Assembly: GCA_028692955.1 (NCBI GenBank)
Contig: JAQUWH010000008.1
Location: 1 to 64,000 of the forward strand
DNA from: Clostridia bacterium
GTDB taxonomy: Bacteria > Bacillota > Clostridia > TANB77 > CAG-465
Length of the DNA: 64,000 nucleotides
Reading direction: 5' to 3'
Positions 40,816-64,000 of the stretch are shown one piece after another. The notes beneath the pieces were generated by a model, which did no database searches, was not told the origin of the DNA, and saw nothing but the letters and a program-made list of their open reading frames with translations. The translations under genes and the position numbers were made by a program. How positions within the stretch are numbered: position 1 is the stretch's first letter; every line of letters starts with the position of its first letter.

Positions 40816-43800
40816 ATGGTTGATGGAAGTAAAAAAAGAAAAGGAATTAGTTTAATTATCTTAATTATTACTATTGTTGTCATGCTGATATTGGCTACAA
40901 CAGTAATTGTTTTTGTGATGAGAAAAAATCCAATACAAAGTGCAAAAGATGCCAACTTAAAAAATGAAATGCAAACGATGTTAGATGAGCAAAATGAAAG
41001 ATATAAAGATCTTTTATTTCAAAAAGCAGGAGACGATTCTAAAATAAATGATGGAGACTTCCAAGGAATTGTATCTGATGAATATAAAGAACAAGGCTTT
41101 GATGCAACAAAAGATGGCGTTTTGTATAAAGGCGAAGATGACCATGTAAAAGACATTGCAATAGAGATGGGACTAATTGTCACAGATAAAAATATAGTTC
41201 CTATTATTGAAGGAATATTATATGCATCTACTACATGTACCATCAAGATTGATGTTACGTCACAAGATACTCTTTCTCAAATAGAAGATTATAATTATTA
41301 TATCAGTAAAGATGGTAATAATTGGAGTAAATATGCGGAAGCTGAAACTCCTTATGTGATTGGTAGATTAACGGATAACACTGATTATAAAGTGAAAGTA
41401 GAGTTAGTGGATATTAATGGGAATAGAGTAGAGTCGGAGCCTGCGACTGTAAGAACGAAAGAATTATTAAGGGGTAGTCTTGTTGCAAAATTAAATTCAA
41501 GTACTGGCGCTAAATATGAATTTAATACATGGACAAAAGAAGATATATGGGTTAATGCTATTCAATCAGCTACTGGCTCTACAAGTTATAGTGCGACAGG
41601 AGCAAATATAGTTGCTGCAGGTACGACAACACCTACTACTTTGAAGAAACAAGGTGAAACTAAGATACATTTAATCACTACTGATGGAACAAATAATAAA
41701 ACAGCAGACTATGTAATAAAGATTGATAAAGATGCACCAACAGGAACTATTACTACAACTGCCAATACTAATTCAATTTATACAAAAATTAATAATCCTA
41801 CTGATAATTTGAGTGGAATTGCTAAATATGAATATTACTTAGATGGTGAGTTGAAAAATACAAGTCAATCACCAGAATTTACTTATCAAAATCTAACACA
41901 AGGTAGTAACCATGAAGTAAAAGTTGTCGTAACAGACGTTGCTAAAAATTCAACAATATTTACCAAAGGTCAACAACTTCCAATTGTACCAGATGCAGAA
42001 GATGTTATTACATATACATTGAATCCAGATAAATGGACCAATCAAGACGTTACTTTAACAGTAAAATACCCTAGATTTGATGGGCTATTTGCACAGTTTA
42101 GTGACTCAAAAGATGCAAGTGGAAATAAGATATGGAGTAATGTTTCTAGTATTGGGCAAGCGATAGATTATAAAACAACCATAAGGACAAACAAAACTGT
42201 ATATGTTAGATATACGGATATTACAAATCAAGTAGGAAAAGAAATGCCAATAGTAATTAATATCATTGATAAATTGGCGCCAGATAATATAACACTTTCA
42301 TCAAGTACAAAGGAAAATGTCCAATCGGTAAGTGTTATAGTATCTGTACAGGATACGCCTGCTACTGAAGATTATGGAATGAGTGGCATTGAAGAAATAA
42401 AATATTTGTGGAGTACGAAACCTGACAAATTAGCCTCAGGTGATGCTCTATGGAATAGTTCTGTTAATATAGCAAATGATGGAACTGTAACACGAGGTGG
42501 GACAAATGAAGTTATTTACTTACACGTAAGGACAAAAGATAAGGCAGGAAACTATACTACCGCAGTATCTGGTAGATATTTAATTGATAATCAGGCTCCA
42601 ACTGTCATATTTAATCCAAATGGAAATAGCACTTATGCCAAATCACAAAGTACAGTCGTTACTGTAAATGATAATTTTAGTATTGATGGAACATATGTAA
42701 GATATTCATGGACACAAAGTACGACTGCGCCTGCTGAATCATCATTCCCAACAAGCAATACATTTACGAGTGGACAAACTATAACAAAAAATAATGATTC
42801 AGGAAGCAATTGGTATTTATGGGTACTTGCTAAGGATTTAACCGGAAATACAACGATAATAAGATCCAATGCATTTTATTTAGATAATACTAATCCAGTG
42901 ATATCAAGTTTTAACAAGACTTCTCATACGATTAATACGGTACAATATACTGCACAGGCAAGTGATGCTCATAGTGGTATAAAAACGTATCAATTTTATA
43001 TAGGTGGAACTTTAAAATCTACGGTTACTACTACTGCCGGTAGTGCAAGCTATAAATTTACTGGGTTAACCCCCCTTACTAATTATACATTTAAAGTTAG
43101 AGTTACTGATAATGCGGGTAATTTCTCTGAATCTAGTAGTACATTTACGATTAATAATGTTGTTGAGGCAAAAAACATATCAGCAACTGGCTATGATGTA
43201 TATGTCTATACCAATACAAACCCATACATCGTGTATGTACAAACCTGGGCTGATCTAAATGGTAATGATGATAAGATTTTGGAAGCAGTAAGAACTGGTA
43301 GTAATGGTGTATATAAATATAGAGTAAATGTATCAGCACATAAGTATAAAAGTGGAGTATATAATTCTCTTGTGTATCTTAAGCCTAATGAGAATGCTGC
43401 GAACACGTATATTGGTAAAGTAACACCAGAGGTGCCAGCTGATGAAACCCCTCCTGACGCACCTACTATAACGCTAAAATATAACAATTCTAGTGGATCA
43501 CAATATCCGAGGGGGTATTGGACTGCTGAAAATGTCTATGTGAAAGCTACTTCAAGTGATAATGTGGGAATAAAAAAATTTCAATATATGGTCGTTGCCA
43601 TTGATGGTAAAGAGGTAACTGATCCGAAATGGAGTGATACACCACCAAGCGCATGGAACCCTTCAAAGAACGGTAATACTATAGAGACAGTAATTTCTAG
43701 TGGTATTAATTCAAGTTATTTTGTACGTGCCGTTGATTATAATGATAATAAGAGTCTATCGTCAATTCAATTTACTATTAAAATAGATAAGACTCCACCA

Positions 43801-44343
43801 AAGGCTTTTAATATTGCATATGAAAATGTAGGCAAAACAGCATTTACTATAACAGCTTCAACTTCAGATCCGGAAACTGGAATAAAAGAATATCAGTATG
43901 AGATAATTGGTGTTAAGAGTGCAAAAACAGCGAATAATAGTTATCAATTTACTGGACTCACTCCAGGTACTAATTATAAAGTAAAAGTAACTGCATATAA
44001 TAAGGTTGGATTATCAACAGGGAGCAATAGTAATTTGTCTATTACTACATCTTCGGACGTATGCCCCTCTAATGTACATGTATTTGGTGCTTTCATGGGT
44101 GATCCTTCTACTGCTAAATATGGAGATCTTCCAAATTACGTAATGCGTAACTACCATTATGATGGTGGATGTGAGTGGTTTGACTGTAAGCATGAACACC
44201 ATGTAATCTATACAAGTCGTGTAGGTCCCTACAGAGCCTGTGTTATTTGTGGAAGAACAGCATATGAATTAAAAAAAGATTTTGATCAGGCTGTTGGTGA
44301 AGCTAATTTATGGTGTCCTGGTGAAATAAACCTCTGTTGGTAG
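40816..44343 (+). CDS. Large surface protein: pilin-like N-terminus, Ig/FN3-type repeats, Cys/His-rich C-terminus
   Basis: The 1175-residue protein starts with a class III signal (KKRKG10 then ISLIILIITIVVMLILA), as in type IV pilin-like proteins, but lacks the usual Glu at +5. A ~120-residue pilin-like head follows (MQTMLDEQNERYKDLL...EMGLIV). Residues ~130-1080 hold repeated Ig/FN3-like units marked by WT-x-ENVYV/QDVTL strands, ID-K/N-xAPT linkers and SGIxxYxYYxDG motifs. The last ~90 residues carry seven cysteines and several histidines (GGCEWFDCKHEHH, CVICG), possibly a metal-binding knot. It shares the head and repeats with the truncated gene at 62597. It is probably displayed outside the cell; adhesion is a guess. 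Confidence 0.75.
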   Translation: MVDGSKKRKGISLIILIITIVVMLILATTVIVFVMRKNPIQSAKDANLKNEMQTMLDEQNERYKDLLFQKAGDDSKINDGDFQGIVSDEYKEQGFDATKDGVLYKGEDDHVKDIAIEMGLIVTDKNIVPIIEGILYASTTCTIKIDVTSQDTLSQIEDYNYYISKDGNNWSKYAEAETPYVIGRLTDNTDYKVKVELVDINGNRVESEPATVRTKELLRGSLVAKLNSSTGAKYEFNTWTKEDIWVNAIQSATGSTSYSATGANIVAAGTTTPTTLKKQGETKIHLITTDGTNNKTADYVIKIDKDAPTGTITTTANTNSIYTKINNPTDNLSGIAKYEYYLDGELKNTSQSPEFTYQNLTQGSNHEVKVVVTDVAKNSTIFTKGQQLPIVPDAEDVITYTLNPDKWTNQDVTLTVKYPRFDGLFAQFSDSKDASGNKIWSNVSSIGQAIDYKTTIRTNKTVYVRYTDITNQVGKEMPIVINIIDKLAPDNITLSSSTKENVQSVSVIVSVQDTPATEDYGMSGIEEIKYLWSTKPDKLASGDALWNSSVNIANDGTVTRGGTNEVIYLHVRTKDKAGNYTTAVSGRYLIDNQAPTVIFNPNGNSTYAKSQSTVVTVNDNFSIDGTYVRYSWTQSTTAPAESSFPTSNTFTSGQTITKNNDSGSNWYLWVLAKDLTGNTTIIRSNAFYLDNTNPVISSFNKTSHTINTVQYTAQASDAHSGIKTYQFYIGGTLKSTVTTTAGSASYKFTGLTPLTNYTFKVRVTDNAGNFSESSSTFTINNVVEAKNISATGYDVYVYTNTNPYIVYVQTWADLNGNDDKILEAVRTGSNGVYKYRVNVSAHKYKSGVYNSLVYLKPNENAANTYIGKVTPEVPADETPPDAPTITLKYNNSSGSQYPRGYWTAENVYVKATSSDNVGIKKFQYMVVAIDGKEVTDPKWSDTPPSAWNPSKNGNTIETVISSGINSSYFVRAVDYNDNKSLSSIQFTIKIDKTPPKAFNIAYENVGKTAFTITASTSDPETGIKEYQYEIIGVKSAKTANNSYQFTGLTPGTNYKVKVTAYNKVGLSTGSNSNLSITTSSDVCPSNVHVFGAFMGDPSTAKYGDLPNYVMRNYHYDGGCEWFDCKHEHHVIYTSRVGPYRACVICGRTAYELKKDFDQAVGEANLWCPGEINLCW

Positions 44344-52354: not shown

Positions 52355-54145
52355 ATGAAAATAAGTAACACAACAGCAAGAAGAGGAATTAGCTTAATAA
52401 CGCTAGTGATTACAATTATAGTTGTTATCATATTAGCAGCTGCAGTAATACTGACATTAAATAACAATAATCCAGTAGAAAATGCGAAAGAAGCAACTTT
52501 TAGAAGTGATGTAGCAAGTATTCACGAACAATTAAACTTATATGCCTTAAATGAACTTGCAAAAAATAACGGAACATTCGATATAACAAGCATGAATGGA
52601 AAAGTATCAGATTATATACCAGGAGTGACTCAATATGATAGTGAGTTAAAAGTAGAGCAAGGAAAACTAGTATATACAGGATCAGATACAAAAAGATCAC
52701 AAATGGTAGAGGAGATTGTAGGAAAAACAAGTACAGTAGAAGTAGGTGGATTAAAGTATAACAAACCAAATCTATCGTATTTACCAAGCGCTACCACAAA
52801 AGCGGTAAAATGGGATGCTAGTAACGTAGAAACAGAAATGGAAATAACAGCAGCAGATAAAGATTCAAGCTGGTATGACTATGCACAAAAGAAATGGGCA
52901 AATATATATACCAACAATAATGGAAATAAAGCGTATTGGGTATGGATACCAAGATATGCATATAAAATAGATAACCCTCACACAACAACAGCAGAGAAAA
53001 TTAACATCAAGTTTTTAAGTGGAACAAGTAATGTAGCAAGTGATGGAAGTAGTATAGAAGGATATACAATACATCCAGCATTTACGTTTGGAGATACACA
53101 ATTAAGTGGAATATGGGTAGCAAAGTATGAGGCAAGTAGTTCAGATCCCAATAAAGTAACTTCAGATGGTTATACTGGAGGAGGAAACACTACAGCCTTA
53201 CAAGTAAGAGTTATACCAGATGTATACAGTTGGAGATCTATTTATATAGGAAATATGCAAACAGTAAGTATGAATATGGCAAGTAGTAATGGAAGTGTAG
53301 GAACCAGCACTAACATAGATACGCATCAAATGAAGAATATAGAATGGGGAGCAGTAGCATACCTATGCCAAAGTCAATATGGACAAGAACCATGGAATAA
53401 CCCATACGGAGATTGGACAGCAGGATCGTATAAGTTAAAAACAGGATATGCAGGAGCAAGCAAAGATAGTGGCGGATTAGTAGAAGGAAATGCAAATTTA
53501 GCAAAATATAACACAGTAAATGGAGTAAAAGCAAGTACAACAGGAAATATAACTGGGGTATATGATATGTCAGGAGGAGCATATGAATATGTAGCTGCTG
53601 TATTAAATAATGGAAATCCAAATATTGGTTACTGTATGAAAGCAGAGCATGTACAAAGTAACAAAGTAAAAACAGAATATGCCAAGTATTATGATGTATA
53701 TGAACCAGGGGATGAAGAAAAAGAAGGTGGAGCGTATTACGGCCAAGGAGGAGTAAATCTTTGGAATTCCGGAAATGCGGAGTCACAAAATATCATTAGA
53801 AAAAGAATAACAGCAGCAACGTATGCAAATTTTGCAAACAAAAAAGGTGATGCCTTGTGGGAGACTTCTAACGGGAATAGTTATTACGGAAGATATACAT
53901 CAGGAACAGGAGACTTGGCATGGTTACAGGATACTGCAAGAGATTCAGCAAGTGGCAGTCAGTATGCCAGAGGATGGAACACAGATTACATGCTAGTCGG
54001 TCATGCCTATCTACCTTGCCTGTTACGTGGTAGCGGTTTCAGCAGCGGTTCTTATGCGGGTGTGTTTGCAGCTTATTCGAACTACGGTAGCAGCTTCGTC
54101 CTTTACGGGTTCCGTCCCGTTCTTGCCGTGGGGTTGGCACTTTAA
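52355..54145 (+). CDS. DGR target (variable) protein: pilin-like N-terminus and FGE/C-type-lectin-like domain
   Basis: This 596-residue protein is the substrate of the diversity-generating retroelement. Residues 1-11 (ending TARRG) plus ISLITLVITIIVVIILAAAV form a class III pilin-like signal; Glu at +5 is missing. A helical pilin-like head follows (EATFRSDVASIHEQLNLYAL). From about residue 185 there is a formylglycine-generating-enzyme/sulfatase-modifying fold (YWVWIPRYAYKI, GIWVAKYEASSS, MKNIEWGAVAYLCQSQYG, VYDMSGGAYEYVA), the C-type-lectin scaffold commonly used by DGRs. The variable repeat encodes residues 550-596 and ends in GFRPVLAVGLAL directly before the stop. Ten codons (553, 561, 564, 567, 574, 577, 579, 581, 583, 584) differ from the template. 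It is probably displayed on the surface; its ligand is unknown. Confidence 0.9.
   Translation: MKISNTTARRGISLITLVITIIVVIILAAAVILTLNNNNPVENAKEATFRSDVASIHEQLNLYALNELAKNNGTFDITSMNGKVSDYIPGVTQYDSELKVEQGKLVYTGSDTKRSQMVEEIVGKTSTVEVGGLKYNKPNLSYLPSATTKAVKWDASNVETEMEITAADKDSSWYDYAQKKWANIYTNNNGNKAYWVWIPRYAYKIDNPHTTTAEKINIKFLSGTSNVASDGSSIEGYTIHPAFTFGDTQLSGIWVAKYEASSSDPNKVTSDGYTGGGNTTALQVRVIPDVYSWRSIYIGNMQTVSMNMASSNGSVGTSTNIDTHQMKNIEWGAVAYLCQSQYGQEPWNNPYGDWTAGSYKLKTGYAGASKDSGGLVEGNANLAKYNTVNGVKASTTGNITGVYDMSGGAYEYVAAVLNNGNPNIGYCMKAEHVQSNKVKTEYAKYYDVYEPGDEEKEGGAYYGQGGVNLWNSGNAESQNIIRKRITAATYANFANKKGDALWETSNGNSYYGRYTSGTGDLAWLQDTARDSASGSQYARGWNTDYMLVGHAYLPCLLRGSGFSSGSYAGVFAAYSNYGSSFVLYGFRPVLAVGLAL
54003..54142 (+). 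repeat. DGR variable repeat (VR)
   Basis: These last 140 coding bases of the target gene match the template repeat at 54359-54498 except at 13 positions, each of which is A in the template: eight became T, four G and one C. The final 38 bases (54105-54142) are identical and GC-rich, as expected of the initiation-of-mutagenic-homing end. The match stops at the stop codon. Confidence 0.95.
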
Positions 54146-54358: not shown

Positions 54359-54498
54359 ATGCCTATCAACCTTGCCTGTTACGTGGTAGCAATTTCAGCA
54401 ACGGTTCTAATGCGGGTGTGTTTGCAGCTAATTCGAACAACGGTAACAGCAACGTCAATAACGGGTTCCGTCCCGTTCTTGCCGTGGGGTTGGCACTT
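54359..54498 (+). ncRNA. DGR template repeat (TR) within a predicted template RNA
   Basis: The TR is the unchanged RNA template that the reverse transcriptase copies with errors at adenines. It is 140 bases long with 30 adenines; 13 are replaced in the VR and no non-adenine differs. Ten of the variable codons are AAC, AAT or CAA in the TR frame, which cannot mutate to stop codons. GC is about 50 percent by my count, well above the flanks. The RNA sense strand is the plus strand. A TGA stop lies directly upstream in the VR frame, so the TR is not a gene. Confidence 0.95.
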
Positions 54499-57732: not shown

Positions 57733-58161
57733 ATGAAGAGAGGTATTACACTATCCATTGTATTAATTGCCATCGTTATCATGATTACATTAATTACTAC
57801 AGCAAGCGTAGTTGGTGCAGGGGCTATTGGCACTGCAAATTTTGAATCATTTAAATCAAATGTCACTAGAACAGCTGATGCGGTGAATGAATATTATTTG
57901 AAAAATGAAATATTACCTACTACAAATGAAATTATTGCAGCAGATTCTGTATCTAATGAGTTAAGACAATTATTAGCAGAAAAAGGCGACATCAATGCAA
58001 AGTTGTATGTTGTGGATATGTCAAAATTAAATGATTCAACGATTGAAAATGGTAAGGGAACATTAAAGGATAAAGATGTATATTTTATTGCCGAAAATTC
58101 TTTAAATGTATATTATTTAAAGGGATACAAATATAGAGCAAATAGATATTTTAGTTATTAA
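57733..58161 (+). CDS. Small pilin-like (class III signal) protein
   Basis: The 142 residues begin MKRG then ITLSIVLIAIVIMITLITTA, a pilin-like signal with a basic stretch and Gly before the hydrophobic helix, followed by a head of ~110 residues (ADAVNEYYLKNEILPTTNEI). As in the other three such proteins here, position +5 is not Glu. GGAGGA precedes the ATG. It is next to the DGR and starts a run with dusB 8 bases later. It may be a minor pseudopilin; no prepilin peptidase or assembly ATPase is in the window. Confidence 0.65.
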   Translation: MKRGITLSIVLIAIVIMITLITTASVVGAGAIGTANFESFKSNVTRTADAVNEYYLKNEILPTTNEIIAADSVSNELRQLLAEKGDINAKLYVVDMSKLNDSTIENGKGTLKDKDVYFIAENSLNVYYLKGYKYRANRYFSY

Positions 58162-62570: not shown

Positions 62571-62596
62571 TAATGAGTTTGTATTTAGGGGGATTT

Positions 62597-64000
62597 ATGG
62601 AAACTATGAAGGGAAATCATAAAAATAGGTATCATGGAATATCACTATTAGTGTTAATTATTACAATTATTGTAATGATTATCATTTCTGGTGCTGTTAT
62701 TTTGATAGTAATGAATCAAGGAACTATAAATACTGCAAAGGAAACTGCTCTTAGAACTGATATGAGAACAATGGTAGATAACTATGATCAAAGATATAAA
62801 GAAGTATTATATGATTATCAAGGTGATGATTCAAAGTTAAAAAACTCTGATTTTAATGGTGTGGTACCCGATAAATACTTTGATACGGGGGACTATGTTG
62901 CTGAAAAAGATGGTGTAAGATATCAGGGTGATGATGAAAAAACCAAAGTAATTGCAAAAGAGATGGGGTTATTAGTTGGGAAACAAACTAATTTAACAGG
63001 AATCGAATCTATTACATTAAGCAATATTACAACTAATTCTGTAAAAGCAGAAGTGAATTTAACTGGAAATCCTACAGGTAACTTTAATTATACCTATTAT
63101 ATTTATGACGGTACAAGATGGATTATTTCTGCAGATATGATTGCAGATGGCATTTATAACTATAAATCATTAAAACAAAACTTTGGATATAAAGTGAGAG
63201 TAGATGTATCAGATGCTTATGAAAATTCATTTACTTCTGACGAAGTTGCTTTTTCTACACAAGATTTAATGCTTGGAAGAGTAATACTAAGATTAAATGA
63301 TAAAAATGGTTCTGATTATGTACCAAATACATGGACAAATCAAAGTGTGTATGTGGAATCAGTACAAACAGAACAAGATACACGTACCTCTTATACTGTT
63401 TCAGGTACAAATGTGATATCAAGTGATACAGAAGTAGGAAGTGTATTGGCATTACAAGGAAAATCTACTGTAACATACAAGACAACGGATGGCAATAATG
63501 AAAAGTCAGCAGAGCATATTGTATTGATAGATAAAGAGGCACCAACTGCCACTTATGATATTACTAAATCTACAAAAGATATTACGGTAAAAGTATTAAA
63601 TGCAAATGATAATTTAAGTGGGGTCAAAGAATTTAGGTATTATTTGGATGGCATTATAAAGTCAACACAAAAAGAACCAACTTATGTATTTAGTTCCGGC
63701 ATAGCTCAAAACACTAAATATAAAATAAAAGTAGTTATTGTAGATGTGGCAGGAAATGAAAAAGTATATGAACAAGATGTAACAACAGATACGGTACCTT
63801 CTGCAGAAACAATAACAATAGAAGCAAATCCGACAACATGGACAAATCAAGATGTAAATATTAAAGTAAAATATACAGGCGTATCAAATATGCGTGTACA
63901 ATATAGCAAAGATGGAAATAATTGGACATTGATTGGAAACGTAGGTGTAACTGGAGAATACAATACAACTGTAAGTAGTAATACGACTGTATACGTAAGA
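62597..64000 (+). CDS. Large pilin-like surface protein with Ig-type repeats (truncated by window end)
   Basis: The reading frame is open for 468 codons to the last base. It begins METMKGNHKNRYHG then ISLLVLIITIIVMIIISGAV, a class III-type signal, here with no basic residue directly before the Gly, and a head (MRTMVDNYDQRYKEVLYDYQ...KEMGLLV) that is clearly paralogous to that of the gene at 40816. Ig-like units follow with TWTNQSVYV, VLIDKEAPTATYD, NLSGVKEFRYYLDG and TWTNQDVNI. AGGGGGA precedes ATG 62597. It is probably a surface protein related to the 1175-residue one. Confidence 0.8.
   Translation, partial: METMKGNHKNRYHGISLLVLIITIIVMIIISGAVILIVMNQGTINTAKETALRTDMRTMVDNYDQRYKEVLYDYQGDDSKLKNSDFNGVVPDKYFDTGDYVAEKDGVRYQGDDEKTKVIAKEMGLLVGKQTNLTGIESITLSNITTNSVKAEVNLTGNPTGNFNYTYYIYDGTRWIISADMIADGIYNYKSLKQNFGYKVRVDVSDAYENSFTSDEVAFSTQDLMLGRVILRLNDKNGSDYVPNTWTNQSVYVESVQTEQDTRTSYTVSGTNVISSDTEVGSVLALQGKSTVTYKTTDGNNEKSAEHIVLIDKEAPTATYDITKSTKDITVKVLNANDNLSGVKEFRYYLDGIIKSTQKEPTYVFSSGIAQNTKYKIKVVIVDVAGNEKVYEQDVTTDTVPSAETITIEANPTTWTNQDVNIKVKYTGVSNMRVQYSKDGNNWTLIGNVGVTGEYNTTVSSNTTVYVR

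Follow-up and report, generated by a model that had tools for sequence, protein, structure and literature searches.

Background

In a diversity-generating retroelement (DGR), a complex of reverse transcriptase (RT) and the accessory protein Avd makes an adenine-mutagenised copy of the template repeat (TR) RNA, and this product takes the place of the variable repeat (VR) in a target gene. In the TvpA DGR of Treponema denticola, a single TR and RT act on as many as seven target genes scattered over the genome (PMC4891356), and Roux et al. 2021 reported that the targets of cellular DGRs are membrane-bound (PMC8144416). Modular type IV pilins have been described from Streptococcus sanguinis, where PilB carries a vWA module and PilC a lectin module; a survey in the PilB paper counted 264 modular-pilin architectures (PMC8179133, PMC9934059). 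The residue Glu5 of type IV pilins pairs with the N-terminus of the neighbouring subunit and normally drives docking (PMC10191384). It is usual and not universal, since PilA and the K subunit lack it, and the known Glu5-less subunits are mostly minor pilins with a tip or initiating role (PMC9934059).

DGRs, modular pilins and DGRs in which one TR serves seven targets are each already known separately. The main text of the S. sanguinis PilB paper mentions neither DGRs nor FGE modules, and that of Roux et al. 2021 (PMC8144416) contains no word starting with "pili". Another paper (PMC6642488) attributes to Paul et al. 2017 the description of "putative pilin structures" close to DUF1566 targets. 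Our literature search found no paper combining "diversity-generating retroelement" with "prepilin", an earlier mention in Paul 2017 or Wu 2018 being possible, and no T4P-coupled modular-pilin DGR family with genomic evidence.

Here we analyse a DGR on a stretch of 64,000 nucleotides from a Clostridia bacterium (the window; GenBank assembly GCA_028692955.1, contig JAQUWH010000008.1), whose host we call Gram-positive because its relatives are Clostridia and Bacilli. We propose that the multigene family on which this cellular DGR acts probably consists of modular type IV pilins, which would most likely be displayed by type IV pili (T4P).

Results

The DGR cassette

The window locus is a bona fide DGR (Table 1). 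Its VR is 90.7% identical to the TR over 140 nt (E=4e-51), and all 13 mismatches lie at TR adenines, with none at the 110 other TR bases (chance about 2e-9). The RT is the only RVT_1 match of the 1.25-Mb, 97.7%-complete genome and has the motif IGNYTSQ in common with its DGR relatives. An earlier sequence-only reading of the locus held that the last 47 residues of the target vary; these 47 residues do correspond to the repeat, but the mutable codons inside it number only about 11 per protein, because error-prone copying is confined to TR adenines.

A stand-alone MutS domain I protein is conserved next to the DGRs of this clade, similar ORFs lying beside the related RT loci L023-L028 and L030. 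A literature search for MutS together with DGRs returned no paper evidently on such an accessory gene.

Table 1. Features of the DGR locus (positions within the window)
Feature	Positions	Strand	Evidence
DGR target gene, pilin module plus C-type-lectin/FGE module	52355..54145	+	ORF, 596 aa
Prepilin leader, residues 1-11	52355..52387	+	Sequence; cleavage is expected behind Gly11; profile aligns to solved mature pilins from residue 1
Pilin-like module	52388..52762	+	AlphaFold2 model; alignment with operon pilins
C-type-lectin/FGE-like module (predicted)	52763..54142	+	Foldseek 5vf4 TaqVP E=1.5e-9; profile 5vf4 E=2.8e-7
Variable repeat (VR), 140 nt, last 47 codons of target	54003..54142	+	Repeat comparison with TR
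Template repeat (TR)	54359..54498	+	Contains 30 adenines and ten AAY codons; at least six further VRs of the genome match it
DGR reverse transcriptase, 348 aa	55660..56706	-	PF00078 E=1.7e-18
Avd accessory protein, 120 aa	56691..57053	-	PF22296 E=5e-20; NF033474 82 bits against a cut-off of 80
MutS domain I-only accessory protein, 136 aa	57046..57456	-	PF01624 E=3e-11
Another short pilin-like protein (142 aa) adjacent to the DGR; uncertain whether it belongs to the system	57733..58161	+	ORF; pilin alignment

Anchor and predicted fold of the target

The target begins with MKISNTTARRG, followed past the expected cleavage point by ISLITLVITIIVVIILAAAVILTL. Judged from the sequence and from alignment with the operon pilins described below, this is a class III prepilin-type signal, with a basic leader, Gly at -1 and a hydrophobic helix of about 20 residues; the mature +5 residue is Thr, and Glu5 is absent. 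A family profile (A4) built from 40 homologues of the window target matches solved type IV pilins from mature residue 1, among them PilE1 (8pfb, E=7e-6), geopilin (9egp, E=8e-6), MshA and PilA. The C-terminal half of the same profile matches 5vf4, a DGR protein of Thermus aquaticus (Table 1). The Pfam family N_methyl is matched by 12 of the 40 family members and FGE-sulfatase by 16; the window target searched alone against Pfam matches neither, so its FGE/C-type-lectin identity becomes visible only through homologues and fold search.

The AlphaFold2 model of the target has an overall pLDDT of 80. It shows a hydrophobic alpha1 without Glu5, modelled as helices at residues 14-37 and 40-70, then a small alpha/beta part up to about residue 136 with a pLDDT of about 40-65, and a C-terminal domain that is mostly confident. 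The best PDB match of the model in Foldseek is TaqVP, itself a DGR variable protein. The assignment of a C-type-lectin/FGE fold to the binding module, with the VR at its C-terminus, is supported by this predicted structure.

The sequence-only reading had described a DGR that diversifies a pilin-like, surface-anchored protein of FGE/lectin fold. Signal, helix, TR/VR pair and TaqVP fold match all support that description; within it, the family profile's match to solved pilins confirms the class III pilin-like signal (TARRG and a hydrophobic helix), and structure prediction bears out the FGE-type C-terminal domain. A cytoplasmic location is ruled out by the prepilin signal and helix. A phage-tail target is likewise ruled out, as the neighbours are housekeeping genes and the target has a prepilin signal, and a Bacteroides-type (type V) pilin is unsupported, the profile matches being type IV pilins.

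Type IV pilus machinery of the genome

Lack of a prepilin peptidase and of pilus machinery had been named as a finding that would speak against the pilin-like description; the genome encodes an A24 prepilin peptidase and a complete T4P operon. The catalytic A24 peptidase was found by profile match on contig 3 (C3:119079). On contig 17, an operon-like run comprises a PilM/N-like fusion (549 aa), a PilO-like protein, two short pilins, a PilV-like pilin carrying a peptidase-A24 N-terminal domain, a further minor pilin, a PilB carrying MshEN, PilT and PilC, where PilM/N/O were assigned by size, order and the look of their sequences, and the ATPases, PilC and the A24_N domain by profile matches. 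A second, Tad-like cluster lies on contig 3. At L010:15980-16792, a PilV-like pilin segment with Glu5 is joined to the N-terminal zinc domain of prepilin peptidase (PF06750), and the catalytic A24 domain is encoded apart from this fusion (L011:6843-7598).

The target genes are located outside the pil operon. The N-terminal helix of the two short operon pilins is nearly identical to that of the target, all three having GISLI[VT]LVITIIV[IV]IILAAAVILTLNNNNP in common. Both operon pilins have Val at +5, and Glu5 is missing from both and from every target of the genome. Entry of the target into a filament is not assured, because it has no Glu5, which is the chief difficulty for the pilus reading; Glu5 is, however, equally absent from the presumed major pilins.

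More than 30 loci in the genome have a Glu5-less pilin-type N-terminus, many of them on proteins of 400-1300 aa; proteins of 939-1324 aa with such an N-terminus are encoded in the window at 40816-44343 and 62573-64000 and at L238. To judge by these sequences, a large and unexplained pilin-anchored surface proteome is encoded in a 1.25-Mb genome.

Related DGR loci in Clostridia and Bacilli

An RT scan of GTDB contigs yielded 80 loci in Clostridia and Bacilli MAGs. Among the related Clostridia DGRs with a readable TR/VR pair and target start, targets are mostly pilin-type, and within the family of the window DGR the target is pilin-type in every genome with a readable DGR target. Canonical GFTL[IL]EL signals with Glu5 occur in four targets, L080, L097, L100 (Bacilli) and L109 (a Clostridiales record), and other transmembrane (TM) anchors at five Bacilli loci. 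In the Clostridia targets L061 and L082 the helix is in frame and a standard start codon is missing. At L024 the VR spans 1496-1656, but the target ORF already ends at 1589, which places a frameshift or stop inside the VR. Four loci (L175, L177, L207, L212) have signal-less targets starting approximately M..RY.K.V.EAE..ITF.VSEGT beside a related RT, and are probably prophage DGRs.

Pilin-type targets and PilB across the order

Across 388 genomes from the order, 148 encoded an RT of this clade, 293 a PilB of this kind and 127 both, so that PilB occurred in 127/148 genomes with the RT against 166/240 of the others (p=2e-4). Among genomes with readable targets, pilin-type ones were found in 24 of 29 PilB-positive and 3 of 12 PilB-negative genomes (p=8e-4), with N-termini classed by motif and eye, the ambiguous G122 and G228 excluded, and a sample that was not random, the first PilB-positive batch having been chosen by RT identity. 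The association with PilB is uncorrected for phylogeny and is confounded by kinship and prophage DGRs. When the comparison was restricted to RTs of 40-47% identity, the counts were 8/13 and 2/11, respectively (p=0.047). Targets in PilB-negative genomes mostly have a signal peptide, another TM helix or no signal, and some look like prophage DGRs, a type that is present in PilB-positive genomes too. At four loci from PilB-less genomes of the order (L172, L178, L182, L184), the DGR target bears a plain signal peptide or TM anchor, which looks as though genomes without the pilus had exchanged one anchor for another.

A universal link between pilin-type targets and PilB is ruled out by three clean exceptions, G108, G186 and G380 (97-99% complete), which have pilin-type targets and no convincing PilB-like ATPase. 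All three retain the prepilin peptidase, and a pilin-type anchor may therefore outlive the pilus and persist as a mere anchor. In one of them, G380, pilin-type targets occur at three distinct DGR loci (L185, L186, L187). Prepilin peptidase is not useful as a discriminating marker, being present in 21 of the 22 genomes tested.

The pilin-like N-terminus might serve for export and membrane anchoring only, in which case the target would be a stalked lectin-like membrane receptor, processed or not, that never enters a filament. The missing Glu5 suits such a receptor, as do the plain TM or signal-peptide targets of other DGR families and the peptidase kept by PilB-less genomes with pilin-type targets; the numerous long proteins with the same N-terminus are also hard to fit to one type of pilus. 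We nevertheless consider this unlikely, as the pil operon itself encodes two short pilins with a helix close to that of the target and, again, no Glu5, pilin-type targets are enriched in genomes with PilB, and a 460-aa module held near the membrane would be expected to lie buried in the wall of a monoderm cell. Display as modular pilins on T4P is the reading that we prefer.

One template, many targets

Besides the window VR, a search of the genome with the TR recovered six full-length VRs, on contigs 13, 14, 16 (two), 18 and 20, which rules out a single-target DGR. Differences from the TR at adenine sites and at other sites, respectively, number 13 and 0 in the window, 17 and 1 on contig 13, 14 and 5 on contig 14, 14 and 6 on contig 20, 15 and 6 on contig 18, and 18 and 4 (C16a) and 17 and 7 (C16b) on contig 16. 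Pooled over the seven VRs, 108/210 adenine sites are changed against 29/770 other sites (odds ratio 27, Fisher 5e-57), so that the adenine footprint extends to at least seven genes. The encoded proteins are 87-95% identical outside the VR and 64-79% identical inside it (the C20 fragment left out).

All seven VRs sit in members of one paralog family of at least 14, made up of ten complete genes and fragments at contig ends; the true number may be higher, because breaks in the assembly fall within the family. Contigs 6, 12 and 16 carry tandem arrays. Six further paralogs, one on contig 12 and five on contig 6, show 13-19 adenine-site and 29-39 other differences from the TR, and the non-adenine differences are largely common among them (L154, L155, L153). 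This pattern suggests that these paralogs may have been written by a second template, older or lost, that is absent from the assembly. The TRs of related genomes, considered as a source of the 430-470-aa FGE pilin-type paralogs, gave weak matches and no clear adenine bias.

An alternative is that the window VR alone is still being rewritten and that the remote paralogs are relics, whether old copies or products of recombination. The many non-adenine differences of the contig 6 and 12 paralogs would agree with this, since they imply that some paralogs are no longer maintained, or not by the window TR. We hold it to be distinctly improbable, because the six remote VRs differ from the TR at 14-18 adenines but at only 1-7 other sites and their ORFs are open. 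The question touches the multi-target claim alone and is compatible with either pilus or membrane display.

Discussion

We favour a mechanism in which the RT-Avd complex would copy a single TR RNA with adenine errors and use the cDNA to overwrite the 3' end of any one of seven or more dispersed targets, an activity read here from its sequence footprint. Each target would be exported by way of its class III prepilin signal, the pilin helix and short module carrying the putative C-type-lectin/FGE-like module, and we infer that the prepilin peptidase processes it and that the PilB/PilC/PilM-N-O machinery incorporates it into type IV pili. Display would most likely be at or near the pilus tip, as in S. 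sanguinis PilB/PilC (PMC8179133, PMC9934059). The result would be a repertoire of randomised adhesins, with glycans, host mucus, neighbouring cells or particles as candidate ligands. Because Glu5 is missing, our claim is limited to a protein that is built like, and would work like, a modular pilin, and does not extend to a proven filament-forming pilin.

That the target is a minor pseudopilin in a Com/T2SS-like machine for DNA uptake or secretion, its variable domain acting in uptake or release and not in adhesion, is highly improbable: the weak NCBIfam matches to GspG, and to ComGE for one fused minor pilin, score far under the family cut-offs, the genome has a PilT retraction ATPase and a PilM/N/O-like set, and hypermutated lectin folds suit ligand recognition.

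More broadly, and tentatively, T4P may act as a retroelement-driven display library, in which one template would continuously randomise at least 14 pilin-grafted lectin-like tips in a small genome, on T4P of presumed Glu5-less major pilins; the strategy would be widespread in a group of Clostridia, with Glu5-type pilins in Bacilli. A single bacterium could then display many randomised "sticky tips", probably on T4P. If the proposal is true, cellular DGRs gain a concrete display machine, the function of many "membrane-bound" Firmicutes DGR targets would be explained, T4P would have a programmed source of adhesin diversity, and the long-open purpose of bacterial DGRs would become testable in Clostridia. 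It also raises the structural question of how a pilus is assembled when its presumed major pilins lack Glu5.

Within the literature searched, the combination of DGR and modular pilin, its multigene scale and its association with PilB appear new. The targets resemble the membrane-bound cellular targets of Roux et al. 2021 (PMC8144416) in being anchored and adhesion-like. TaqVP of T. aquaticus (PDB 5vf4; PMC6328139) is the closest solved fold, with a C-terminal VR on a C-type-lectin scaffold; unlike TaqVP, the window target has an additional pilin-like module, and the profile match covers the lectin/FGE module only. As in the T. denticola TvpA DGR, one TR serves many dispersed surface-exposed targets, although those of T. 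denticola are largely lipoproteins of a diderm (PMC4891356), whereas the window family has pilin-type anchors in a genome with T4P. A close parallel in architecture is with S. sanguinis PilB and PilC, in which a large binding module is likewise attached to a class III signal and a short pilin module, in a monoderm lineage with T4P machinery and with tip display expected. In contrast to these pilins, the window family lacks Glu5, comprises at least 14 paralogs and carries a putative C-type-lectin/FGE module that is rewritten by a DGR.
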